Assembly: GCA_014728785.1 (NCBI GenBank)
Contig: WJKZ01000050.1
Location: 1 to 14,021 of the forward strand
From: Candidatus Omnitrophota bacterium
GTDB lineage: Bacteria > Omnitrophota > Gorgyraeia > Duberdicusellales > 4484-171
Reading direction: 5' to 3'
DNA: 14,021 bases
This document shows positions 1 to 14,021 of this stretch, in pieces (position 1 is the stretch's first letter; every line of letters starts with the position of its first letter). Under the pieces are notes generated by a model that saw only the letters and a list, made by a program, of their open reading frames with translations, had not been told where the DNA came from and did not search any database. The translations under genes and the position numbers were made by a program.

Positions 1-121
1 CCTTATGCCCAAAACTCCCCGTGGTTCGACCTCAAGTACACTTCCATAATCAGAGTCTTCTGCAAAAGATATATTTCCGAAACCTCCGAATTCCCTAAAG
101 GCAGTAAGAGAGACTACGCTC
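1..121 (-). other. Start of a further domain, cut by the window edge (residues 4634-4673)
   Basis: After the last formamidase-like helix (VIYNLSGKKE) the sequence becomes beta-rich and acidic: FREFGGFGNISFAEDSDYGS and then LEVEPRG. The spacing of aromatic, Gly and Asp residues resembles the first strands of a jelly-roll carbohydrate-binding or LamG-like domain, but only 40 residues are visible and no assignment is possible. Confidence 0.3.
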
Positions 122-3100
122 TCTTTTTTGCCTGATAAATTATATATAACATTGGATACTATCCCGGAAAATGCCGAATCATCATCTCCTAAGGCCGAAA
201 CAACCCTTTCTGTCCCCGAATTAAATATCATCCCTCCGCTGGGTGTCCTTTTTAAAATCATAACCCCTTGGCCTTCGCCGGAAACAGGCACAAACCCCAG
301 AACCGTTACTCCTCTGGGGTCTATTAATCCCGCCACACTGGCAGGAGGTAAATCAGCCGGGACTAAAACTTCTTCGCCGACTATCATCTCCCCTTCCTGT
401 ATATCGACACCTTCATATACCCAATTACCGGTATTTACTGCCGCTAACCCGCTTATTGCATTCCCTCCATATGCGTAGTTTAGACCGCCTACCCTTTCTC
501 CGGAAACATCCCAGGCGATACTTAAATTACCGCTATTGATATCTGCCTGCCAGACGGCGGGGCTGGCGGCGAAAACTACCAGGTTTCCGCCGTTTCCGAT
601 ATACTCCTCATATGCTTCTACTCTTTGCGGAGTCCATACCGTATCGGGGCCTACCTCTATTATCAGCGAATAATTGGATAAAATATCCGGGTTATTATCT
701 ATATCTATATCGGTCGCGTATTCCAGGCCGTAACCTCTCCTCTCCAACCAGCTGACCATATCGGCTTTTGCCTGGAAGAAACTGCCGGCACCATCTCCAA
801 AATTTAAGGGCCTGGAAAGTGATACTTCCTCAGCTGGCACTCCGTTAAAAGAATTGTATTCAAACAAGCTCTGTCCGCCGAAGTTGTTGTGAGCCTGGTC
901 GCCTAACGTATCCACAACAAAAAGCATATCTGAAAAAGAACCCGGCTCGTCTTCCGTAACTACAAAAGGTATATAACTGTAATCATCAAAGTCGGCTGAA
1001 ATCTTCATAAAATATGCACCGCTCTGCCAGTGTGAGGGGATAGTGAAATCCATAACATTAGCGCCGCCTGCCTGGGTCTGATGGACTATAGGCGATGTTA
1101 ATGGCTGCAAATCGAGGCCCTGTCTGTAGATTTCTACTTCATAAAGCGGGTTATCCGTATAAACATAAAACTCTAATTCCCCGCCCTGGGCAACGCTGCT
1201 GTCTCCGCTATAGCCCTGAATCTGCCAATCGTGATTATATTCTTCATATTGTTCTGCCAGGTCGTTATTCCTGTAAAACAATGTCGCGGCCCGAGCTGAC
1301 TCCAGACCGTACCCCTTATTAAAAATGTAAGCCAACGGTGTGTATAGAGTTGTGTCCAGATGAATTCCCGTAGTACCCTCCATCATCTCCCAGAATGCCT
1401 GGCCTATACCGTTATGATTTTCTTTTCCGTATACATAGATATCCATAGCCTTCACGGCATCTCCCAGAAAGGGTATGCCGTTGGTCCAGTGCACTGCTAT
1501 TTGCATCTGGGGGCCTATAAGAATAAGGCTGACCCAGCTCTTAAGTATAACCATCAATGTCTGAAATAATGCTCTTTTGGCATTATCAGATTGTTTCCAA
1601 ACCTGTATTATCGAGGGGGTGCTCAAACACAATGCCAAAACCAGTCCCCCGAGAATAATCTGCCAGCTAATCGCATACCTGCCTATAACCGGAATCAGCG
1701 GTGCCAGGACAACATCTCCAAGAAATTGAGGAGAAAACAATGTATGGAGTATCACAGGCGTGATGTATTTGCCTATAAAGGCTATCCATATTCTCTGTAA
1801 TACCACAGCAGTAACACCGCGGCTTAATATTACAATAGATACCGATAATCCATTTTTAAGCTTACCCAATAAAGCCTCTTCGTTTGTCCTTGAAGCCAAA
1901 TAGACTATAATAAAATCTAAAGGAGTAAATTGCAGGTATCTTCTGCTGATTTTAGACGGATATACGGCGGAGTTCTGCTTTGAGGCCTGAATAGCTGCAG
2001 CTACTATGTTACCTATTTCTTCATCTTCTAAATAGTTTTGTCTCCAGGCAAAAAATACTCCAAGCGGCACCAGAAACGGTTTTAGAAAAAGCCGGTAGGT
2101 AAGAAAGAAAAAGAAAACATCAAGTATTCCTCCGATTATAAGCAAAGGCAGGTTTATAAGCGGTATCTGGGCCAATACGTTTATAATACCTAAACCGGGT
2201 ATGGCTCCTATAAGCCTTAAAGAAGAGAATGATTTGACCTGTTCATTTTCTACTTTTTTGAGGAAGAGACGTATAATATTTTTGAGGATTATCTCTCTGT
2301 CCGGGGAATTATTCCAATCAGAAATATCAATATTTTGCCTTCTGTTTATTTTTTTCGTGATACGCGGTAAAGACGAAACTCTGTGAACTGCTTCGTAAAA
2401 ATTCTCATCACCCGGCGGCCCTCTTGTCTTCCATGACCTCCACCATAAAATGAACATAGCAGCACCCAACAGGGATATCCCGGCTATACTGCCGGCAATT
2501 TTTAAAGCCAGGTCTGAAGAAATAAGATTAAGGCCGTAGAGAGGTACTCCGAAAATTTTTAGAGAAATAAAAACAACACCTGAAAAAAGCCCCATCAATA
2601 TAACTACTGACTGCCAGGGTATAACACCCCGCAGGGGTTGTTTAAAATCATCCATGGTGTGTATATCCTTAGAGCCTGCGGCTGATTGTTTCTCCAGGGA
2701 TAATCTGGCTATAACTTCCTCGGTAAAATGTGCCATTTCCTCCTGCCGGGATAGAGTCTCTATTCCTACAGTGACCTGGAGATGCCCGTCTTTTCTGCCA
2801 ATTACTCTTGCGGCTCCTGACGTAACCACAAGGGCTAAATTATTCAATAAATCCTTGTCGCCGTTTAGATTGAAAGCCAGGGCATTGGCGAACATATTAA
2901 TCTTCTCAACCGTTAAGGGCCCGTAAGATACCTCGCTCATACCAAAACTCCAGGGATTGAAAAGGCCTCTTCCGTTTACCACCTCAATTCCTCCTTCAAC
3001 GATTATGTTGCCTCCGGAATATGAAGTGAGTCCCATGGCATCCAGATCTGTAAGGGCTATTCCTTCCGGGTAAACTCTGTCCAAATGCATATCAATAATC

Positions 3101-6100
3101 CTCTGCCGGTATTCCCGGGAAGGTAAAAGCAGCAAAATATTCAGGAATTCAAAATAGTGGCCCGAGCGGAAATCTATCCTCGGATTCTGTATGGAAAAAT
3201 ATTCATTGATAAGGTTCTGCAGGGGCCGGCCCCTGATCAGAAAACCCAGAGTAAATTCGTAGAGTAAGACATCCTGCTGGATAAGTTCTCCTTCAACCCT
3301 TCTGCGTTCTGATACATCTCCGTTAATTCCCGAAGCGATATGTCCTAATTCGTGAAACAGCCTTTCGGCAACCAGCCATTCGACGATAAGCGGATATTTT
3401 TCATAATCTTCTATGCATTGATAGGCAAACTCATAATTAAATATAACCGTATTCTTGTGGCGCACCGAAGTAAGGTCCAGCACACCTTTCCGGGAAACAA
3501 CGATAGTCACCTGAGAAGTAATATCGCCCATGATTTGCCTTAAATAACCTGCCAATTGGGTTTGAACGGATAGTCTGCTTTCCAGAGAATTCAAGGCACG
3601 ATTAAGTATTGCCGCAAACTCCCCGGCTCCGGGAGATGCTCTCCGGCCGGAATAGAATCTATTCTCTCCTCCTGTAGGATCGAATATTATCTCTCCGAAA
3701 TCTTCGTCCAGATTCCCGGATAGATAATCATACGATGGTATTCTCTGATACAAATCAATCCATCCGAAAGCGATAGTATTAAGGCCTGCTTCGACTGGAT
3801 TAATAGGAGTAATCGTTGAAGGAGATTCTCTTTCCAGAAGGCGGGAACCCGCAACTTGTAATTGATTAATCAATATGCGGACACCGAAAACAAGCCATAC
3901 TCCCAGATTAATTAAAGCATTCATAGACCAGCGGAGCGGAATACTGAAAAATGTCCAGAAAAACAGATTGGCCCCGGCCATAGCAAACCAGAACACACTC
4001 CCTCTAACGGTAATATGTAATATCTCAAGCATGAATTTCGAGGCAGAGAAATTCACAAGATTGGTATCCATGATTGTAAACAAAACCCCTTTAAAGAAAA
4101 CAAAAAGAAAAACCGCAATCGCTACATTGGATATAAAATTAACCAGTTTATAAATAAAATCCCGGCTAACAATATCTTTTTCCAGTAACTCATCTCTCCG
4201 GACTCTAAGGTACCTGTCTCTGAGTACGGCAGGCCTGCTTATAATATCCCGAAGCGCGGTTCCGCGTTCATCAAATTCTTTTCTAATCACAGAAAAGATT
4301 ATATCGGGACGATAGTCTCTCCTGAAAATCTCCGAAAGTAGTACCTCTCTGAATTGTGAAGGAAGCCTGTTAACCACGGGAGCAATGTCCGTCACATATT
4401 CTACCCCCCATTCTTGCAGGTAGAGTAAAAATTGTCTGCGTAAACTTTCAGGTAATTTCCTTGAACACACATAGACGGCCTGCTGGTATTGGTAAGGTAT
4501 GGAAATGCTGCCTCTCATATCTTCCAGGCCCTGAAAAACAGCTGCGAGTCTTTGCGAGATACGGGCAACCGTTTTATTTAATTCATCTGTTGTATGTTCA
4601 AGAGACAACGCCGCTGCAGTCAGAAAAGGCACGGGCAGCTTCTCGCAGGTATCGTCTCCCCAGTATTCTCTTATCGCACTCGTTGCCTCAGGGAAGCCCT
4701 TTATATGCTGATATCTCAACGCCAGGCGGTAAGACATACCTATTACATAAGGGTATACTCCCTCATACCGTCTCCTTACATCCTGCCAGGAAGCTCCTCC
4801 GAACCAATCGTCCAGAACAGGTATATGGTTACGGCCTACGTCTCCTCTGGGTGAAGTCCCCGATAAGGCAAACTGGTTCTGGATGAAAGGAGCAAAGCTT
4901 CTTAAGATATGAGAATCCAGCTCGTTGGATACAACATCTTCATTCGCTCTTAAGATTCCCTCAAACACATTGTGTATAAAACCCTGAAGCCTGTCATCCA
5001 GGGAATCTCCCAATGCCAGAATAGCTTCCAGGCTGACCCCGCAGAGAACAGCCGGTACCGGGCCGTGAGGGTAAGTCAATAACAGATGGCCTAACAGGTT
5101 ATCTTCCGTAAGGAGAGAAAGCTCAGGTATCTCCGGTAATGTGCTTATGCCGAACAAAGAAGAGTATCTGCCCCGGGCAATTTCATACCTTACTGCTAAA
5201 GCATTTACCCGCTGGTTCATGGGAAACCAGGGCCTGGGGATGGGTATTCTGATTTTACCGACAAAGGGGACAGGGAAAGGTAAACCGACATAGCTGTACC
5301 ACCTCGTATGGTCGTAAAGGTCTAAAACCTGGTCTTCGTCGCCGAAATATGATTTTAACAATGCTTCGTCTCTGCTATCGGGCACTATATAACCGGTGTC
5401 TTCTGCCTCCTGACTCAAAGGCTCAAGGCCCTGCTCAAGGAGTGTTTCATTAAGACGGCTGAGCCAGTAACGGCTCATCTGCGAATAGAGATCTTTTACC
5501 TGTTCGCCTGTAGGCTCAATGTATGAATTATCGATAACCCAGGCATAAAAGCTCATAACAGTCTCGCCATTTTCTATGGCTCTGGCGACATAAATAAGGT
5601 ATGCCTCAAATCCTGATACACGCTCTATAGCCGAAGCAGCAAGCATCTCTTCTCTGAATTCACTACTCAAAACAAAAGAAGGCAGTGTTAGGCAAGGCGC
5701 CTCTCTGAGTTCCTGAACACCTGAACCGCTATCTGTAAGTATTTCGTATTCTCCGGGAGTGAGAATAACGACCTCCATACCTTCTAAGCGGCCACGGCTG
5801 TAGAAAGAAGTGGCATCATACACTCTTTGTTCATATTCCGATAAGCCATGTTCCTGCCCGTAACCTGATTTTTCAACATCGATATTACCTGCTCCTTTAT
5901 AAAGTATATTATGGGCCGAAGGAGCCACCACAATCATGCGCCTGCCGCTGGCAGATTCGCTTAATAAAACTCTATCTATGCGGTAACCGGCTTCCTTTGC
6001 AGCTTCTAAATATTCGTATACTATATTTTCAAAGACGGTATCGACACTGCCGGAGGCATCTCCAAACAGATAATCGCTTAAACGTAAAGGCCCTCTGCTC

Positions 6101-9100
6101 CAATCCCTGGGCCCCCAGAGCCACGTCCTGTCCTGCCGATAGTTGTCTTTGCCGAAATAATCGGTCAATATACGGTATACTACAGCTTCCTCAGAACCTA
6201 TCCATCCGAATGGCTTAACAACATCCCCCCCTCTATAACCTTTTTGTGTACCGGTAAATAGATATCTGGCTGCAGGATTACCTGCTGCCATGGCAGATGT
6301 AACTCTATCTATAATTTCTCTGGCAAGCAGAAGGGCATCCTGCCGGCGTATGTCCGGTAAACCGGCATGAGATAATATTCCGCCTGCCGATACCGAGTAT
6401 TTTTCTTCTAATCTCGAAAGTAGATTGGAAATCCCTCTAAGTCTGTCCTGAGTATCTTCTTCATCGGCCTGCAAAGCTCCCTCGGTCTCATCGATTATCT
6501 CCTCAGGTCTGTAGTAACCTACCATGGACATAAAAAAGTGCAGTCCTCTGGCAAAAAGCAGACCGTCCAGTTTACCAAAGGTCAGCCGGGATAATAATCT
6601 CCTTAGTTTCCCGACTCCCCATCTGAATCCGACTTCTGCCGGAATCCTCAAAGTATCTTCCTGGCCCAGGCTGACTTCATATTGGCCGCTTAAATCGAAA
6701 TATGCCTGCCTTGCAGACATTCTCTGCCTCTCTAACTGCCGGCTTGCCTCCTGTTCGGCTTCTCTCATCTGTTCATCATAAGGAGACCAGGGCACTCTGG
6801 GTTTACCTGCCGTCTCTTGCCCCGGAACTTCCAGCCCGCAATATAATTGCCCGTCTATTTCTACGCCTATCCTGCCTGTAAGGTAATTGACTGCCGTGAT
6901 AAGTTTTTGCGCCTTTGTTAAGCGGGACGGGTTCATCACTAAATGTATCTTTTGGCCTCCATAGGTAACTATTACGGCACCGTCAGGGACTACATTGATA
7001 ATTATCCCTACCCCGAGCGGCTCTCCCCCGGCCCAGCGGTCTTCTCCGGTGACTCTACCTTCGGAGTAGGCATCGGTGACTATAGCCCCCCTGACACCGG
7101 GGATAAAACTTATCTCCTGAGGATGCTTTACGGAAAGATAAACCTTACCTGTCCTGGATACAGAAGGATCGGCCAAGACCTCCGCAAAACTACTGTGTTT
7201 CATCCGGTAATTGTATACTTTAGGCTGCGGCCTTCTTATCCAGCAAGTAAGGCGTTCAAACAGGGTGTTACTATCTAATGTCTTTTCTCTTCCTATTTCT
7301 GCTACCGGATAACGGGCGGCAAGAGTCCTTGCCATATCCCTGCGGATACCTTCCATCCATCTCCATCGTTGCTTTAAATATTCACCCCAGGTCAAGCTTG
7401 CATCGGTGTTAAAAACTCCCTGCCTCTTTACGTTGGCTGTAGGGGACAGGCTCCCCCAGAGCCAGTGAATAATGCTCACGACAACATATTCCTGAAACTG
7501 TAAAATTGACAACACCGATTTTTTCCTTCCTACGAGCATCAGAATGTATGCGAGAGGCCCTACGAAAATAGTCAGGAAGAATGTGAAGATGGTAAAGGGA
7601 GCTAAAAGAATATTTATCCAGATATTTCCTAAATCTTTATTATTAAAATCTATACCGATAATGGGATTATAGACAATTGCTTCCTCATCCGTAGATAAAT
7701 GCATTACGAGGTCTCTTAACAATGCGGGTTGGGCTGCGGTTCCGGCTTCCACTGCAGCACATACAACTTTAGGCTGTTCGTACTCCTCGGTTTCCTCAAA
7801 GAGTTGCGTTTGCTCCGCCAGTCCTGGATTGGTAAGTACGAAAGCACCGACTACCCTTTCTAATTCCTGGACTTCCCACTGCCGGGGCAATTGATGCCGG
7901 TGAGGATGGAAGTGGTCAACCATGGGATTAGCTACTGCTGTGTGGTTACCGGGGCCGCTTACCTCCGCACAGGCCGTTAACTCCCGTATTGTTTCTACCG
8001 GAGCAGGTTCGATATCGCCGTCCCAGATATCCTGCGAACTTTCTGCCTTAAAACGCTCATATGCGCGTTCTGCCTCTAAATCCTGCTCTTCGGTACCTCG
8101 GTTGTTTTCGTGTACAATAAGCGCCTCTGTGGAGTAAGGATTATCATTGTCTGCAATACAGATATACCCTTGCACGTTAAAGGCATAGGCGGTCTCAAGG
8201 GGGCCTGCCCTCAGACGGCCGGCTTTGACAGCCCTTCTTAATCTCATTGCTTTTATGTGCTGGCTGGTCAATCTATAATATTCTAAAACAGCATCAAGGT
8301 GGGGCCCTTTATCTATAACTCTGTAAGAATTGATCTCGCCTGAGCCGATAATCCTCGTAGCTTCCTCTATCACATCAGCTTCGTTAAACCCTTTATCAAG
8401 CCGGGCCTTAGCGCTGTTCATTGCATTACCGGTAACTAAGCCGGGGGTATGAACCAGGGGTATGCTCCTGCCGGTCCTGCGCCGGCGTAGAAAACGGGAA
8501 GTAAATGCCTGCAGTTTCCTGCTGAAAAAACACTTAACCAGAAAAAAGCTACCCAATACCGATAAAAATATAACTTCTACCGTCCTCCATTTCGCCATTT
8601 CTTTGGCATAATCGAATGTCCTCCAGGGTTGTACCGAATCGGGAGTAGACTCCCCTACCAATTTATACACCCGTACTACTCCGTGCCAACGGTCTGTATC
8701 AGGGTCTTCTATATAAACTAACTCATATCTTCCCCCTACTTGCAGGATGTCTTTAAATTCCTGGGCTATGTCAAGACGAGCGGTTTTACCTTCAAGCACC
8801 ACCCAGTCAAAAACCCCGTCTCTTAAGCGTGCAAGTATAGTCTCGTTTTCGCCTTCAGGGTAAATTCTGCCGTCAACGCTGCTTAAATATTCAGGTATAT
8901 AATAAGGGGTACGTATCTGGGCGTCTATACTGCTTTCGGTCAATTGCGGCAACAACTCTGCTGTGGTAGCATGACCTACATCTGTATAGACATAATCATC
9001 TGCTTCTATTTCTTGTCTTATTACCTCATGAGCTGCGGTTGTATTTCTCCAGGCTATATCCGTAGAGTTTCTTATATAATCTACGTGCCGCAGGGATAAA

Positions 9101-12100
9101 GGAATAATCACCACAAAAGCAGCTGCAAGCCCAATACGCAAAGCCGTTGCCTTTAACTCCTTAAAAGATACATCCTTATCACTGCTTAACACCGCACTGT
9201 AAATAGTATAGAAAACAAAAGAAACCAGAGGAGCGAGGAAAGCCACAGAAAGCACCATGTGTTTATTCGCCGAAGTCGGCTCGACATAAATATGGACCAA
9301 CGGCATCACGCATCCCCCCAGAAATACCAACAGAGCTGTCAATTTAGTCTTTTTTGGTGTCAGTATAAAGCCTATCAAAGAACTAATTCCTATACCATAC
9401 AATATCCGGTCGTAAAAATTACTGACGGACCTTAAATAGCCGGTGTCGCTGAAGGCACCCAGAAACTTATTAATAAATACACCTGCTAAATTAAGCAGCG
9501 TCGCAATAGGTCCTGTTACTGTTTCCTGGGCAGCACCGCTTCCGGCGAAAGCAAATTTATCACTGTTAAATAAATAGGACTTTACCAGCGCATCAAAATA
9601 TTCAAAGAATACTATGGTAAAAGCCGAAAATGTGAACATAAAGGGAATAATAAAATACCTGGCAGCCTTTTTACCTTTTAAGACAAGTGATGCGGCCAGC
9701 AAGAAAATAACTGCGGGTAAAGAGACGACCTTTGCAGCAGCCGCTAATGCAAAAACGGCCCCGCTGATTATAAATGAAGAGTCTTTATCTCTTCGTATAC
9801 CTTCAGCCAGCTTCCATAGCCCCAAAGAAAAGAAAAAATGCATAACCACATCGTGAGAAACATAACAATGAGTAAATAAAGTGGCGGGCGCAATGGAATA
9901 CACAGCTGCTGCTATTAAGGCAAATCCCCATGCTGTATATTCATTATCCTTTCTGGGAATAAGATAGCGCAGTAATTCTCTGGCATATAAAAATACGAAT
10001 AAAGAACTCGCTACTCCTAAAATATTACTCATCAGCCTTGCTCCGGCAACCGGTTCCCATATACCGCTCAGGAACCAGAAGAAACCGTATACTGGAACGA
10101 GGCCGAAGCCGGCAAATTCCCATTCCCCGGTCATATATCCTCTTAAACCGCGCAGAAGATGGGAGCCTTCGTCAAGATAAAGCGAACTAAACTGCAAATT
10201 CCACCATCCTCCGTTTATCGCAAATACACCTGCCAGGAATAAGCAGGTCAGAACCTGCAATTGAAATTTTGGATTACGCAATAAATTAATTGCACTATTT
10301 TTTAAATTTCCTAAATTAGGCCGGATTGAAAAACCTCTGGTGGGTTCCTCCGGCAATAATCCAAGGCGTGAGGCTAAAGGTTTCTTTCCCTTTGCTAAAT
10401 TCAAAAACAGCTCTTCGAATTCCTGCATTACTCCTTCTCTGCCATACTTTGCCAATACAGATGCCCGGCCGGTCCTGGCTAAAACCTCGGCTCTCGCAGG
10501 GTCAGACAGCATTTCTGAAATCGCACTGGCTAAAGCAGGGCTGTCTCTGGGAGAGACGATAAAACCGCTTACGCCGTCCTTGATATGAAGAGAAATATCG
10601 CCTACGTCTGTAGCCACTACCGGTAGGCCTGCCGCACAGGCCTCGGGCACGACCATCGCAAAAGACTCGGTCAACGAAGGCAAAACAAAGATATCGGCTG
10701 AGGAAAGAATTGCGGGGACATCATCACGATGCCCTAAAAACCGTATGTTTTCCTCAAGCCCGAGGCTGCTTATACGGGACTTTATCTCTCTTTCATACTC
10801 ATCGCTCATAAACCTTCCGATAGCCAGAAGAACCGCACCGGGATATTCCTGGACTATTTCTTGCACGGCCTCAACTAAATAATCATAGCCTTTTAGCCTG
10901 TCTATTCTTGCAACTGTGGCAATAATAGGATTACGGCCGCCTACCCCGAGCATCTCTCTACGTTGCTGGATGAGATCTTCCGAGGCACCTGCTGCGGCTT
11001 CAAATCTTTCTAAATCCAGAGGTATGGATATACAGCCGGTTTTCTTCCTCGGCCAGCCGTAATCTTCTATTCTCTGCTTATAGACAGTCTCGGCCATATT
11101 CAATACATAGTCACAGAATATATGTACTGTAATTTTATCAAGCCATAACGCCAGTAATCCTTTCACCTTTCCAAAAGCATCGAAAGCAAAATCGGCAGAT
11201 GTATGGTGAGTCAGGATTACCACAGGCACGCCTGCAAGCTTTGCTGCCATAGCTGCCAGGAAAGTATTATGCGCGTTGACTACATCAGGACGTTCTCTTC
11301 TGAAAAGGCGGTAAAGGAGTACGAATCCCTTTAGCAATGCCAGAGGCTTCGGCCTGTTTACCTCTAAATCCGGCAGTATCCCGCCGAATATGATTCCGTT
11401 TTCCTCTGCTTCTTTAATCAAACTGGTCCAGAGGTTATGAGCAGGCGTTGCCCCGGCGACAATCGCCACTTCGTACTGCCTGTTATTTAACCGGGATACC
11501 GAAGCCGTAGCTTGTGCCAAACCACCGCTGACTTTAAAATGAGTAGCAAGCTGCAGTACCTTTATTTTAGAACTATCATCGCTGAATAACCTGCGGGAGG
11601 AATCATACACATATCGAGAAGGAAGCACCGAGGCATCGCCGTTTTGAGATTCAGTCGATATTTCAGGTAAATCAGCGCCTAATTTTTCCCTTGCCATATT
11701 AAAAATCCATCCGGTGAAGGGCAATCTTAAATAATGCATCGTTGCCAGTAAACTAATAAACTTATCTCTAAGGCCGAAAATAGAACTTTCTCTTTTCAAA
11801 ACCCACATCTGGAAAAATTTATCCGGGACCTGTTTTATAATAGTTACAAACCCCCGCAGCTCCAGAGGAATTAAAATGCTTTTAAGGAAATTAAAGACCA
11901 ATGCCACAATGGTTTTGACAAAATAGATATCAAGAATTTTGTCGGCGAAGTCTTCGTCTGAAGTCTCTTCCCTCTGGGCTTTCCGCTGAACAAATGAGCT
12001 CTGAGTGGCAATAATAAAACCTAAAAAAGTATTGGCTATCATACGCAGAAAACCGGTAATAAGAATATTTTCAGTATCGATAAAATTGTTGATTAAGACT

Positions 12101-14021
12101 TCTCCTGCGTCACCGAAAGAAGCAAGTATAATGCTCCACACTGCTAACATATATATTTCATGGAGATTGAGCGATTCAGACTTTGCGGATACTTTTTGAG
12201 CAAATATATTCATAGAAACTATAATACTCACGGAAACAAATATATCCCTGATGAAATAAACCCCTATAATATCTTTACTGATGAGTAAGCAAACCAAAGA
12301 CAGCGTAGCCAAAGACAAAAGCGTACTTATAACAGTGCGGGCATCGGGAATCAGAGGGGGCGTTTGCGGAACCGGAACCGGCTCCCGGGTTACTGCTTCT
12401 TCAGGCAGGGGAGCCTTAACTTCTTTTATCCAGGGAGAAGTCTGGCTTTCCGGATAAACCATGAATTCAAGGAAAAGTTCTGCATCGCCAAACCTTTCTG
12501 AACCTAACCCTGTCCTTAAGGCAAGAGTATCTATATACTCCTGCCTTCTAACCTGGCTCTGCTTTAAAAGGCGGGACATCCATGCCCCTTTCTGACTCCC
12601 GAACTCTCTTATTAAAAACTCTCTCTTAGCCTGGTATTCCCGAGGTGTGAGGAGCATAACCCGATTTACATCTTGCAGCGCTTCTTCGAGAGAAGAAGAC
12701 TCGCCTGCGTAAGCAAAACACCTCAGAGAACGACTCATCCTGCTTGAAAAGCTCTGCGCTGCCAGCATGCCTAAATCAGCAGCCGCAATATGTGAAGGGT
12801 GGGTATCATACGGATAAGGCAGGAATATTGTAGATGCACCATACTTATCCAATAATCTAATAACCCTCTCGGTATCTGAAACAGTAATCCTCCCCGGAAT
12901 ATAAATATTGCTCCTGATTCTTCCTCCCGGATAATATTTTGTAATTGAATCTCTGCTATCTTCAAATCCTAAATAGAGAGGGATATAGGTGATAGGATGA
13001 TATCCTTTTTCTTCTCCCCCAATTTCCTCATACATAACCCTGCATGCCCTTTTGGATTCCTCATATCTTAAATGCATGTATTCGGCTTCTGCCTTTCTGC
13101 CTCCTGATAATCTTTCTTTGTACCATTTGGGATATAAGTTTAATTTTCCGCCCGTAACACCAAGTATTACGACTCTGCATCCTCTTTTAACCATCTCCTG
13201 GATAGTTTTCTTAAGAAGTGCTTCATCGTCCGGATGGGTGGAAAATACAATAACAGTTTCATCGCTGGGTAACTCCGACTCCACAATGGTAAAACTTGCC
13301 GATGCATTTGAGAATGCAGCAATCGGACTCAAACCATTGCCGGCAGCATTATCCCGGCAGCGCAGAAGCCATCTGCCCGCCTCATCCCCGGATACTCCCG
13401 AGATTGTTCCTTCGTTGTATACAAGATAAGGATTCAGGCTTCTTTCTATATAACTTTGCGCCGAATGAGTGGGCAACGGTAAAGCCGCGTAACTCCTCGG
13501 CCAAAAAGTCATATCCATAAGGATATCCGGCTGATTCTGTGCAGGTGCAGAACTAACCACCACAGGTTCAGTCTCTCTGCATAATATTTTAAGGTTGGAA
13601 ATCAAACTCCCCGGAGTATATTCTAAGCCGCTGTTTATTAAAGAAATTATGGTGTAACCCTGACGGACGGCATGTCTTCTTAAAGTATCTACCAGAACTT
13701 CAAGGTTTTGTCTGCTTACTTCCTGTAAAAAGATAATTTTTCTATACCGGAATCTTTCTGAAAATATGTCTTTTACCGATTCTAATTCTTTCTCAGAAAA
13801 TTCCTCACCCAAGACAAGGCATAAGTCCGTATTCCAGTGAGAAGGAATTGTCTTTAACTCCTCCTCTACATAAGAAATAGTCCGCCCGACTGTTTGCTCA
13901 TCTTCTATTACTAAAGCAAGCAGTAAACTTTGATTCTGTCTGAAACGAATCTGCCGTAAAGCAGAATTTTCTACAATTTTCTGCCAGAATTCAACGATAA
14001 TATACTTAACCAGCTCTAAAG
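1..14021 (-). CDS. Interior of a giant multidomain membrane protein (partial, open at both ends)
   Basis: One minus-strand frame is open across the entire window: 4,673 consecutive codons (plus positions 1 to 14019) contain no TAA, TAG or TGA, while the other frames are repeatedly closed. The translation reads as real protein throughout, with recognisable enzyme domains separated by linkers and hydrophobic helices. Neither the start codon nor the stop codon is in view, so the full length is unknown but exceeds 4,673 residues. Recognised parts, in order, are a PIG-L/LmbE deacetylase, a GT4 glycosyltransferase, a GT-C glycosyltransferase, an HELGH peptidase-like part and a dimethylformamidase-like domain. 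At least six separate membrane regions lie between them, so the product is probably threaded repeatedly through the cytoplasmic membrane. No ribosome binding site, promoter or terminator can be assigned. A role in surface glycan assembly or cell-envelope remodelling is inferred from the domains. The single reading frame is certain from the sequence; the biological role is not. Confidence 0.97.
122..1236 (-). other. N,N-dimethylformamidase large-subunit-like domain, likely non-catalytic (residues 4262-4633)
   Basis: The overall pattern matches the large-subunit family (DmfA2-like). It opens with WQIQGYSGDSSVAQGGELEF and VEIYRQGL. SGAYFMKISA and YSYIPFVVTEDE follow, then DTLGDQAHNNFGGQSLFEYN, SLSRPLNFGDG, VSWLERRGYGLEYATDIDID, WTPQRVEAYEEYIGNGGNLV, and near the end MIFNSGTERVVSALG. 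These correspond to family hallmarks usually written AYNxxGGxSLY, SFDRPY, WLExxGYDVxY, GHDEYW and FNSGT. In this copy the Tyr of AYN is His, the Tyr of SLY is Phe, the Tyr of RPY is Leu, and GHDE reads GPDT. In characterised dimethylformamidase the iron site uses two Tyr and one Glu, so the metal site is probably lost and the domain may now serve binding or scaffolding. Assignment is by pattern recall, not alignment. Confidence 0.75.
1504..2214 (-). other. Polytopic membrane region before the formamidase-like domain (residues 3936-4172)
   Basis: Hydrophobic segments occur near residues 3936-3951, 3954-3974 (LINLPLLIIGGILDVFFFFL), 3977-3993, 4057-4092, 4100-4113, 4116-4136 (AISWQIILGGLVLALCLS) and 4153-4170 (TLMVILKSWVSLILIG). 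A charged insert (QNYLEDEEIG to ASRTNEEALLGK, 3994-4050) interrupts them. Six or more crossings are likely. No known transporter or enzyme signature is visible. The region delivers the following domain to one face of the membrane, most likely the outside. Confidence 0.7.
2440..2619 (-). other. Two membrane helices after the peptidase-like part (residues 3801-3860)
   Basis: Two hydrophobic segments are visible, PWQSVVILMGLFSGVVFISL and IAGSIAGISLLGAAMFILWW, joined by a short loop containing GVPLYGLNLISSD. The basic run RSWKTRGPP follows the second. By the positive-inside rule, the next soluble stretch begins in the cytoplasm. Confidence 0.75.
2650..3861 (-). other. Putative zinc metallopeptidase part with HELGH motif (residues 3387-3790)
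   Basis: The motif ERLFHELGHIASG carries H3556, E3557 and H3560 (plus 3340-3354), the zinc ligands and catalytic base of HExxH metallopeptidases. The preceding strand and helix (NTVIFNYEFAYQCIEDYEKY) and the following acidic helix (SERRRVEGELIQQDVLLYEF, with E3576, E3578, D3583 and E3588 as candidates for a third ligand) agree with a gluzincin fold. The remaining sequence up to residue 3790 is alpha/beta (GGNIIVEGGIEVVNGRG, LALVVTSGAARVIG, HLQVTVGIETLS) and belongs to no family I recognise. Position between two membrane bundles fits a membrane-tethered protease. It could mature the giant chain itself or act on envelope proteins; both are inference. A lone HExxH occurs by chance in some proteins, but its context here supports the call. 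Confidence 0.62.
3862..4143 (-). other. Membrane bundle of about three helices (residues 3293-3386)
   Basis: Hydrophobic segments lie at about residues 3295-3317 (ISNVAIAVFLFVFFKGVLFTI), 3338-3361 (GSVFWFAMAGANLFFWTFF) and 3366-3386 (NALINLGVWLVFGVRILI). With three crossings, the peptidase-like part that follows would lie on the opposite face of the membrane from the helical region before it. Confidence 0.75.
4144..6696 (-). other. Large uncharacterised, mostly helical region (residues 2442-3292)
   Basis: About 850 residues without any family I recognise and without an obvious membrane helix. It begins with an acidic coiled-coil-like stretch (EIIDETEGALQADEEDTQDR, near residue 2510). A Trp/Gly-rich alpha/beta part follows (KPFGWIGSEEAVVYRILTDY, WLWGPRDWSRGPLRLSDYLF), then strands such as RRMIVVAPSA and GMEVVILTPGEY. 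From about residue 2690 it is largely helical, with aromatic and Arg-rich helices (VMSFYAWVIDN, YSQMSRYWLSRLNETLL, RRQFLLYLQEWGVEYV, VLLSEIFRRDYRPDIIFSV). A Pro-rich loop, VGLPFPVPFVGKIRIPIP, interrupts it near residue 2912. The continuous open frame and protein-like composition show it is translated sequence, not relic DNA. Its function is unknown, and it may contain two or three separate new domains. Confidence 0.5.
6697..6786 (-). other. Charged helix or short coiled coil (residues 2412-2441)
   Basis: This segment is dominated by Glu, Gln and Arg (EQMREAEQEASRQLERQRMS) with no Pro or Gly, which is expected to form one long solvent-exposed helix. It separates the beta-rich part from the largely helical region that follows. 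Confidence 0.55.
6820..7530 (-). other. Uncharacterised region, beta-rich in its second half (residues 2164-2400)
   Basis: The first part is amphipathic and rich in Trp and Arg (SIIHWLWGSL, KQRWRWMEGIRRDM) and probably lies along the membrane. From about residue 2292 it becomes beta-rich: KVYLSVKHPQEISFIPGVRG, AIVTDAYSEG, VGIIINVVPDGAVIVTYGG and QKIHLV. The run GAIVTD, then a Gly-containing loop, then DGAVIV and KIHLV, loosely recalls the swivelling domain of PEP-utilising enzymes. The catalytic His of that domain is absent and the match is by eye only. It is left unassigned. Confidence 0.35.
7531..7629 (-). other. Membrane hairpin (residues 2131-2163)
   Basis: Thirty-three nearly uncharged residues (WINILLAPFTIFTFFLTIFV, then GPLAYILMLVG) are followed by GRKK. 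The length allows one long helix or a tight two-helix hairpin broken at the Gly-Pro. It separates two uncharacterised soluble regions. Confidence 0.75.
7630..8520 (-). other. Uncharacterised soluble region with HENNR and a His cluster (residues 1834-2130)
   Basis: No family is recognised. The first part is helical and basic (LTSQHIKAMRLRRAVKAGRLR). Next comes a short beta-looking unit, TAYAFNVQGYICIAD, and then TEALIVHENNRG (H1970, E1971; plus 8098-8112) with the acidic helix EEQDLEAERAYERF. A hydrophobic strand running into H-E followed by a Glu-rich helix is the layout of a gluzincin peptidase, but the second His of HExxH is Arg, so this would be a degenerate or unrelated motif. Further on, DHFHPHRHQ (plus 7894-7914) places four His at alternating positions and could bind a metal. 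The Cys content is low. Confidence 0.4.
8524..8580 (-). other. Single membrane helix after the GT-C domain (residues 1814-1832)
   Basis: A 19-residue hydrophobic segment, VEVIFLSVLGSFFLVKCFF, is followed at once by SRK and then the strongly basic RFLRRRRTGR. By the positive-inside rule the following domain would begin on the cytoplasmic side. This returns the chain across the membrane after the external tail of the GT-C domain. Confidence 0.75.
8656..10266 (-). other. GT-C fold membrane glycosyltransferase, GT39/ArnT/PMT-like (residues 1252-1788)
   Basis: Enzymes of this fold transfer sugars from a polyprenyl-phosphate donor on the outer face of the cytoplasmic membrane. The first helix (QVLTCLFLAGVFAI) is followed by a loop with SSLYLDEG, whose Asp-Glu pair (D1283, E1284; plus 10168-10173) is the hallmark of the GT39/PMT_2 group. 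ARLMSNILGVASSLFVFLYA (R1328) matches the second conserved helix, and ATLFTHCYVSHD (H1389, D1390) matches the conserved loop that carries a second acidic residue. Eight or more further hydrophobic helices follow to about residue 1670. A soluble periplasmic-looking tail then runs to RVYKLV (1788), as in ArnT-like proteins. Length (about 540 residues) is normal for the class. The substrate is unknown. It follows GT4 by only about 40 residues, so two sequential sugar-transfer steps may be coupled on one chain. Confidence 0.85.
10390..11568 (-). other. GT4-family (GT-B fold) glycosyltransferase domain (residues 818-1210)
   Basis: This domain transfers a sugar from a nucleotide-sugar donor with retention of configuration. 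The N-terminal Rossmann half begins with KIKVLQLATHFKVSGGLAQA, the usual strand plus Gly-rich loop, and contains the family's DVVNAHN strand and the PVVILTHH strand. The C-terminal donor-binding half begins at IIATVARIDRLKGYDYLVEA, where R1038 and K1043 sit in the diphosphate-binding position. It continues with ENIRFLGHRDDVPAILSSADIFVLPS. The E-x7-E motif is intact: E1118 and E1126 in TESFAMVVPEA (plus 10642-10668), followed by AGLPVVATDVGD. Length (about 390 residues) is typical of PIG-A/MshA/BshA-like and polysaccharide GT4 enzymes. The fold and class are secure; acceptor and donor are not known. Because it follows a PIG-L-type domain on the same chain, GlcNAc transfer followed by deacetylation is an attractive inference. 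Confidence 0.93.
12001..12339 (-). other. Membrane bundle of about four helices (residues 561-673)
   Basis: Hydrophobic segments lie at about residues 561-581 (VISTLLSLATLSLVCLLI), 584-607 (GVYFIRDIFVSVSIIVSM), 621-640 (IYMLAVWSIILASF) and 652-672 (ILITGFLRMIANTFLGFIIA), with short polar loops. A charged stretch (QRKAQREETSDED) follows, and a further weaker hydrophobic stretch (YFVKTIVALVFNFLKSILI) lies near residues 699-717. No transporter or enzyme family is recognised. It probably anchors the neighbouring deacetylase and GT4 domains. The number of helices is an estimate by eye. Confidence 0.75.
12340..12420 (-). other. Proline-rich linker (residues 534-560)
   Basis: A short stretch rich in Pro, Val and Glu (EPVPVPQTPPLIPDA at its end) joins the deacetylase to the first membrane bundle. 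Alternating Pro-Val of this kind usually forms an extended, flexible spacer, so the deacetylase is probably tethered at a distance from the membrane. Confidence 0.7.
12454..13260 (-). other. PIG-L/LmbE-family N-acetylglucosaminyl deacetylase domain (residues 254-522)
   Basis: The family consists of zinc hydrolases that remove the acetyl group from GlcNAc-containing small molecules or lipids, for example MshB, BshB and eukaryotic PIG-L. The hallmark first motif is present as STHPDDE (H262, D264, D265, E266; plus 13222-13236), directly after the strand TVIVFS, giving the usual His-Pro-Asp-Asp-Glu metal and base residues. The second motif, near PYDTHPSHIAAADL, supplies D405, H407 and H410 (plus 12790-12807), matching the family's HPDH-like site with Ser in place of Asp. 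The C-terminal signature also fits: a Lys/Arg-rich helix, then REFGSQ, then FGDAELF near residues 511-517. Length (about 270 residues) is normal for the family. All expected catalytic positions appear intact, so an active enzyme is plausible. The substrate cannot be read from the sequence. What is odd is its position inside a giant polypeptide, followed by membrane helices and a GT4 transferase. Confidence 0.9.
13261..14019 (-). other. Uncharacterised segment upstream of the deacetylase (residues 1-253)
   Basis: I do not recognise a family here. The segment alternates short hydrophobic strands (LLALVIEDE, CLVLGEE, KIIFLQEV, GYTIISLINS, EPVVVSS) with charged helices, the pattern of an alpha/beta fold of Rossmann or flavodoxin type. 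The strand ending in ED-E resembles the start of a response-regulator receiver domain, but no matching phosphoacceptor Asp or conserved Lys could be placed, so that identity is not claimed. The last 60 residues (SLNPYLVYNEGTISGVSGDE and onwards) lead directly into the deacetylase and may be its N-terminal cap. The upstream limit of the segment is outside the window. Confidence 0.35.

Follow-up and report, generated by a model that had tools for sequence, protein, structure and literature searches.

Giant open reading frames (ORFs) are already known from Omnitrophota, and the window analysed here, a whole stretch of DNA of 14,021 bp, is part of one of them. Frames longer than 20 kb have been reported in 77 of 116 Velamenicoccia genomes, and Candidatus Velamenicoccus archaeovorus LiM bears an ORF of 39,678 aa, peptides of which were detected (PMC10066038, available text). 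The fate of the giant Omnitrophota proteins has been called unclear in print (available text of PMC12057145 and PMC11573180). Viral polyproteins, such as those of the potyviruses, combine a junction protease with a cleavage consensus (PMC7833154, available text). Modular polyketide and peptide synthetases resemble the present locus in being giant multi-enzyme chains. MARTX autoprocessing toxins are single long bacterial proteins which carry several enzymes and are cut between them.

The window corresponds in full to contig G000:C278 of a draft metagenome assembly (1.51 Mb in 286 contigs, 68.6% complete). Its minus strand is open from 1 to 14019, i.e. over 4,673 sense codons with zero stops and with both gene ends out of view; as the window spans the entire contig, the missing gene ends are contig ends. 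Judged by base composition, the log10 probability of such an open stretch is about -123, and the rest of the window holds a single other stop-to-stop frame of at least 150 aa (170 aa). The GC content by codon position is 0.517/0.397/0.429 for the window overall and is highest at the first position in 15 of the 15 steps of 900 bases shown, therefore nothing points to a hidden frameshift. Tandem repeats were not found in the window, and its direct repeats are short (20-28 bases, in two or three copies). These results confirm the first-pass annotation in its description of one giant, non-repetitive ORF lacking stops and visible gene ends.

Few Pfam families were recognized along the frame, in which a simple Kyte-Doolittle scan predicts 21 membrane segments. 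All features given below lie on the minus strand. A PIG-L type de-N-acetylase domain (residues 258-420, positions 12760..13248; PF02585, E 1.4e-8), with the motifs HPDDE at residue 262 and HPSH at 407, is followed by a GT4-type glycosyltransferase (residues 843-1205, 10405..11493; PF13439 and PF00534, E 4.9e-36), which reaches 144 bits with TIGR03088, under the cut-off of that model. Hydropathy and a PF13231 match below the cut-off (E 0.01) point to a possible PMT/GT39-like membrane glycosyltransferase (residues 1326-1449, 9673..10044), where hydropathy predicts membrane segments as far as residue ~1643. The unnamed domain D2 (residues about 1849-1997, 8029..8475) has matches in 10 other genomes of the class. 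A putative zincin-like domain (residues 3460-3660, 3040..3642) was assigned from its HExxH motif (HELGH at 3556-3560) and a moderate-confidence structural model, for which model comparison gave weak fold matches only. Directly after it comes GLTSYSGGN (residues 3663-3671, 3007..3033), a profile match which we regard as a degenerate copy of the joint peptide described below. A membrane and soluble domain, D3 (residues about 3913-4227, 1339..2283), which has matches within giant frames from 6 other genomes, precedes a domain similar to the C-terminal part of the N,N-dimethylformamidase beta subunit (DMFA2_C; residues 4322-4496, 532..1056; PF20254, E 3.9e-38). The PIG-L, GT4, sub-threshold GT39/PMT and DMFA2_C matches among the membrane segments agree with the earlier claim of chemically different domains. 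Lying inside a giant Omnitrophota gene, the window encodes part of a membrane-studded chain of different enzyme domains.

Extension of the contig, proposed in the first-pass annotation as a way to find the gene ends, succeeded in part: the frame carries on into contig C261, but start and stop are still not reached. Neither this continuation nor the joint peptide described below was noted in the first-pass annotation. The whole of C261 is open, on the strand of the window and in phase with it, and its 3,892-aa frame continues that of the window upstream. The last 14 bases of the window (14008..14021) are the first 14 bases of C261 (chance expectation about 6e-6). The join, which gives 8,561 aa over 25,684 bp and is endless at both sides, rests on this 14-base overlap, the window contig alone having 14,021 bp. 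The sequence of C261 starts within an SNF2 helicase domain; units of the MttB and GT2 types are also present. No further contig links were found by end overlap or via the missing half of the helicase.

Among 57 unmasked contigs of the same genome taken regardless of any motif (81 examined, 24 masked; window and C261 included), five were wholly open, four with the joint peptide and one, C237 (L152, 1-4437; 1,479 aa), without it. Since 24 of the 81 examined contigs are masked (all N; e.g. L101-L103, L106 and L107, corresponding to C264-C266, C269 and C270), parts of the giant frame may lie within masked sequence. The seven wholly open contigs with the peptide, i.e. the window, C261, C250 (6,500 aa), C252 (1,022 aa), C42 (5,068 residues), C7 and C147, encode 25,890 aa in total; they were grouped by open frame and peptide, and may or may not be parts of one single gene.

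The recurrent peptide LTSKSGGH was first seen in the translations of C250 and C252. The joint peptide has nine residues with the consensus GLTSKSGGH, and many units in this genome are set apart by its signature, x-[LIV]-[TVA]-S-x-S-G-G-H. The 4-mer SGGH occurs 7 times in C250 (0.05 expected), and the strict pattern matches at 16 places within the 48 kb that make up four wholly open contigs, and nowhere in the 321 kb of other unmasked contigs examined. A genome-wide search with a DNA pattern of the peptide gave 20 matches versus 3 for the reversed control and pointed to three new contigs, C7, C42 and C147, all three of which are wholly open. A match in C216 (HTGGH), a contig that is not wholly open, was taken as chance.

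After training on 19 copies (taken from C250, C252 and C261), a nine-residue profile found 34 sites in the seven wholly open contigs, of which 19 are the training copies and the 15 others come partly from C7, C42 and C147; shuffles give about 0.25 in all. The other unmasked contigs of this genome that were examined, with 554,490 six-frame residues, yielded no site. The sites are distributed as follows: C250 13, C7 7, C261 4, C252 3, C42 3, C147 3 and the window 1, where the counts of C7, C42 and C147 are no independent test of enrichment because these contigs were picked by the motif. The score of the window copy was reached by 14 of 20,000 shuffles. Codon agreement at identical residues among the copies is 0.371 versus 0.287 expected, hence it is mainly the peptide that is conserved; this excess and two codon-identical copies in C252 show some copying of linkers. 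A second shared peptide, around YLFRGWWxSQ, was noticed in C250 (L135, residues 2465-2486) and C147 (L222, 1286-1307), which are 64% identical over these 22 residues.

None of the 34 sites lies inside a Pfam match (lists including some matches below cut-off), versus a circular-shift mean of 5.79 (P 0.0015), and all of them lie outside the predicted membrane segments, more than 3 residues away. The mannosylglucosylglycerate-synthase-like unit of C7 (215-657) covers positions 3-428 of a 431-residue profile, begins 2 residues past a joint (204-212) and has the other joint at 677, and the MttB-like unit of C261 (1817-2273), which has joints at 1790-1798 and 2307 on either side, covers positions 6-459 of 469; the NCBIfam scores of both are below the equivalog cut-offs, whereas the Pfam scores of MTTB and GT2 exceed theirs. 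The GT2 unit of C261 starts at residue 2830, the preceding joint ending at 2827, and the HAD and Rce1-like units of C252 occupy inter-joint segments of 288 and 295 aa. Other units in these open contigs are SNF2 helicase, cytidine-deaminase-like, HD and guanylate-kinase-like (below cut-off). C250 and C7 contain trypsin-like stretches with TNTHVV, D and GDSGSP, with Trypsin_2 matches under the Pfam cut-off; no solved relative of these stretches was found by sequence. Not every boundary is marked, and some domains lie far from any joint: the peptide is absent near the PIG-L, GT4, GT39-like and DMFA2_C units of the window, which holds the one degenerate copy, and joint-free spans comprise 4,068 residues between two joints in C42 and the first 1,789 residues of C261.

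Giant frames in two other families carry a different, SSSP-like joint peptide (SSSP[ILV]-like). In G175, 58 SSSP/SSP[ILV] sites occur in 22,148 aa scanned, with a median spacing of 260 aa, and SSSP itself is found 40 times (0.24 expected). Within the scanned part of its 29,111-aa frame, 0 of 47 SSSP-type sites fall in Pfam matches (mean 6.55, P 0.0012). A complete phosphoglycerate mutase (18014-18515) is flanked there by SSP sites at 18003 and 18538, and further units are RNHCP (nearly complete, between joints), PPDK_N and nitroreductase. G266 and G323, of one other family, contain SSSP 10 and 5 times (0.2 and 0.13 expected); in G266, 0 of 27 sites lie inside Pfam matches, where the 1.2 expected is too few to inform (P 0.34). 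Because the peptide of the two other families is not the one seen here, a protease common to all of them is unlikely. An excess of SGGH or SSSP was absent from 11 of the 14 related genomes examined, the giant frames being covered whole or in part (G028, G043, G055, G058, G095, G105, G116, G184, G294, G343 and G382). The 29,111-aa frame of G175 stops about 47 residues beyond the last SSP-type peptide (L223, 1-11110), and downstream on the same strand lie ORFs whose translations resemble, by eye, a PilZ protein, sugar ABC transporter parts and glycosidases.

A scan of one genome per species (84,980 species) with the alignment of the HExxH domain revealed 10 loci encoding a relative, all 10 titled Candidatus Omnitrophota or Omnitrophica, which supports the earlier attribution of the pattern to giant genes of this phylum. 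Two of them, L038 and L041, were taken as G009:C104 and G028:C13, from genomes of the window's own family. Among 384 genomes, own included, the HExxH domain is matched in 14, the middle part of the window in 13 (D2 in 10 others, two further segments in one other genome each) and D3 in 7. The matching frames measure 1,089 to 9,619 aa for HExxH (13 matches), 1,190 to 39,957 aa for D2 (11 matches) and 7,085 to 12,189 aa for D3 (6 matches); 25 of these 30 matches sit in frames of 3,484 to 39,957 aa, and at least the shortest matching frame is clipped by contig ends (G009:C104, 3,270 bp). The three segments recur patchily in the class, mostly in huge frames. By contrast, the N-terminal part, chiefly the GT4 domain, is matched in 37 of 37 family genomes (own included), and in ordinary-sized frames among the matches listed. 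The C-terminal 2,774 aa of the window were matched in 7 of 76 other relatives (best E 5e-11).

Other arrangements were observed in these relatives. In G058:C8 (L011-L013), residues 8475-9658 of an 11,893-aa frame (1,184 aa) are 53% identical to a nearby stand-alone ORF of 1,269 aa (46431-50237, plus strand), which looks like gene copying, either into the giant frame or out of it. In G055:C27 (19052-59841; L019-L021), four out of five adjacent large ORFs share a C-terminal stretch of ~190 aa, 49-64% identical, which is perhaps a sorting signal. The 39,957-aa frame of G382:C62 (L071-L077), which runs past the contig end, has, at residues about 17281-18198, ~13 repeats that are each roughly 70 aa long and contain FYxAW. 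G043:C17 (L014-L016) carries three consecutive giant frames on one strand (at least 7,890, 9,419 and at least 2,782 aa), with slight overlap between the stop-to-stop frames.

The window shares with the giant Omnitrophota ORFs in print the phylum, a length above 20 kb (via the join with C261), many membrane helices, few annotated domains and poor conservation; unlike those, interpreted as coat, adhesin or predation proteins, it belongs to a set of frames with a joint peptide and complete intracellular-type enzymes between joints, neither of which is mentioned in the available text of that report (PMC10066038). As in viral polyproteins, several complete and different proteins occur per frame, with protease-like domains within the chain and a short junction sequence that is conserved across the open contigs of this genome (one degenerate copy in the window). 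The differences are the bacterial genome, the far greater length, the unrelated enzymes and the fact that some boundaries are unmarked. MARTX toxins are similar in the number of enzymes on one long bacterial protein and in the cutting between units, which is presumed here. However, the RTX repeat and the family of the autoprocessing cysteine protease are absent from the Pfam scans, the gene ends are out of view and there is no sign of a target cell. Ketosynthase, condensation and adenylation domains did not appear in Pfam scans of the seven contigs (C42: 5,000 of 5,068 residues), and identity with a modular polyketide or peptide synthetase was rejected on that basis. In titles and abstract openings, we found nothing on joint peptides of giant frames; nor did the partly accessible literature from 2021 on bring Omnitrophota and polyproteins together. 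Neither the joint peptide nor the succession of complete enzymes has a counterpart in the literature compared.

Fusion of frames through misassembly or indel error is highly improbable. The draft state of the assembly gives some room for it, but the codon bias is steady along the window, seven motif-bearing contigs here and several independent assemblies are wholly open, and homologous segments are in frame within other giant ORFs. As wholly open contigs recur in the same and in related assemblies, no single misjoin or frameshift explains them. It is also conceivable that the giant product stays uncut, as an extracellular coat, adhesin or predation weapon in which the joint peptides are mere linkers. 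Such a role was proposed for V. archaeovorus LiM, whose giant-ORF peptides were up 3-fold in attached cells (PMC10066038, available text), and giant frames are interpreted elsewhere as surface weapons (PMC12057145, available text). The many membrane segments of the window are in keeping with it, as are two domains of G266, glucosaminidase and Peptidase_M23, which lie close to the C-terminal end of the part examined. Nevertheless, we consider it rather unlikely, given the SNF2 helicase, MttB, cytidine-deaminase-like, mannosylglucosylglycerate-synthase-like and guanylate-kinase-like (below cut-off) units here and the phosphoglycerate mutase, PPDK_N and nitroreductase of G175. Such enzyme families are best known as intracellular, and plain linkers do not need nine shared residues.

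Alternatively, the domains might stay joined as a membrane-bound assembly line for a surface glycan or glycolipid, with products handed from unit to unit as in polyketide synthases. The succession of GT2, PIG-L, GT4 and GT39-like units across C261 and the window would fit, but the helicase, MttB, deaminase, HD and most other units have no obvious common pathway and a carrier domain is absent from the Pfam scans of these contigs, which makes this explanation improbable.

What look like complete enzymes follow one another in the chain, many of the joints bearing a signature peptide, and this suggests cutting into working parts. We therefore favour, with some reserve, a polyprotein-like chain that is probably cut at some of the joint peptides. 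Helix bundles would hold a single translation product in the cell's own membrane, and this product would be partially cut at the joints, perhaps after Gly-Gly. Double-glycine peptidases cleave at this position. The HExxH domain of the window is a candidate protease, as are the trypsin-like domains found in C250 and C7. Cutting would release complete enzymes or keep them clustered. Judging from its families, the window section may be a fixed membrane part acting on glycans, with the C261 GT2 unit, similar to polyprenyl-phosphate sugar transferases, followed in order by the PIG-L deacetylase, GT4 and the GT39-like membrane transferase.

Where cuts would fall can be predicted precisely from the joint peptide and put to the test, and the enzymes found between joints argue for a role within the cell rather than in a coat. 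More tentatively, we hypothesize that some Omnitrophota may carry chromosomal polyproteins, from which many complete enzymes made as a single chain, including those of central-metabolism types, would be freed by cutting at a lineage-specific joint peptide, and that the giant protein might be a precursor and not a surface coat.
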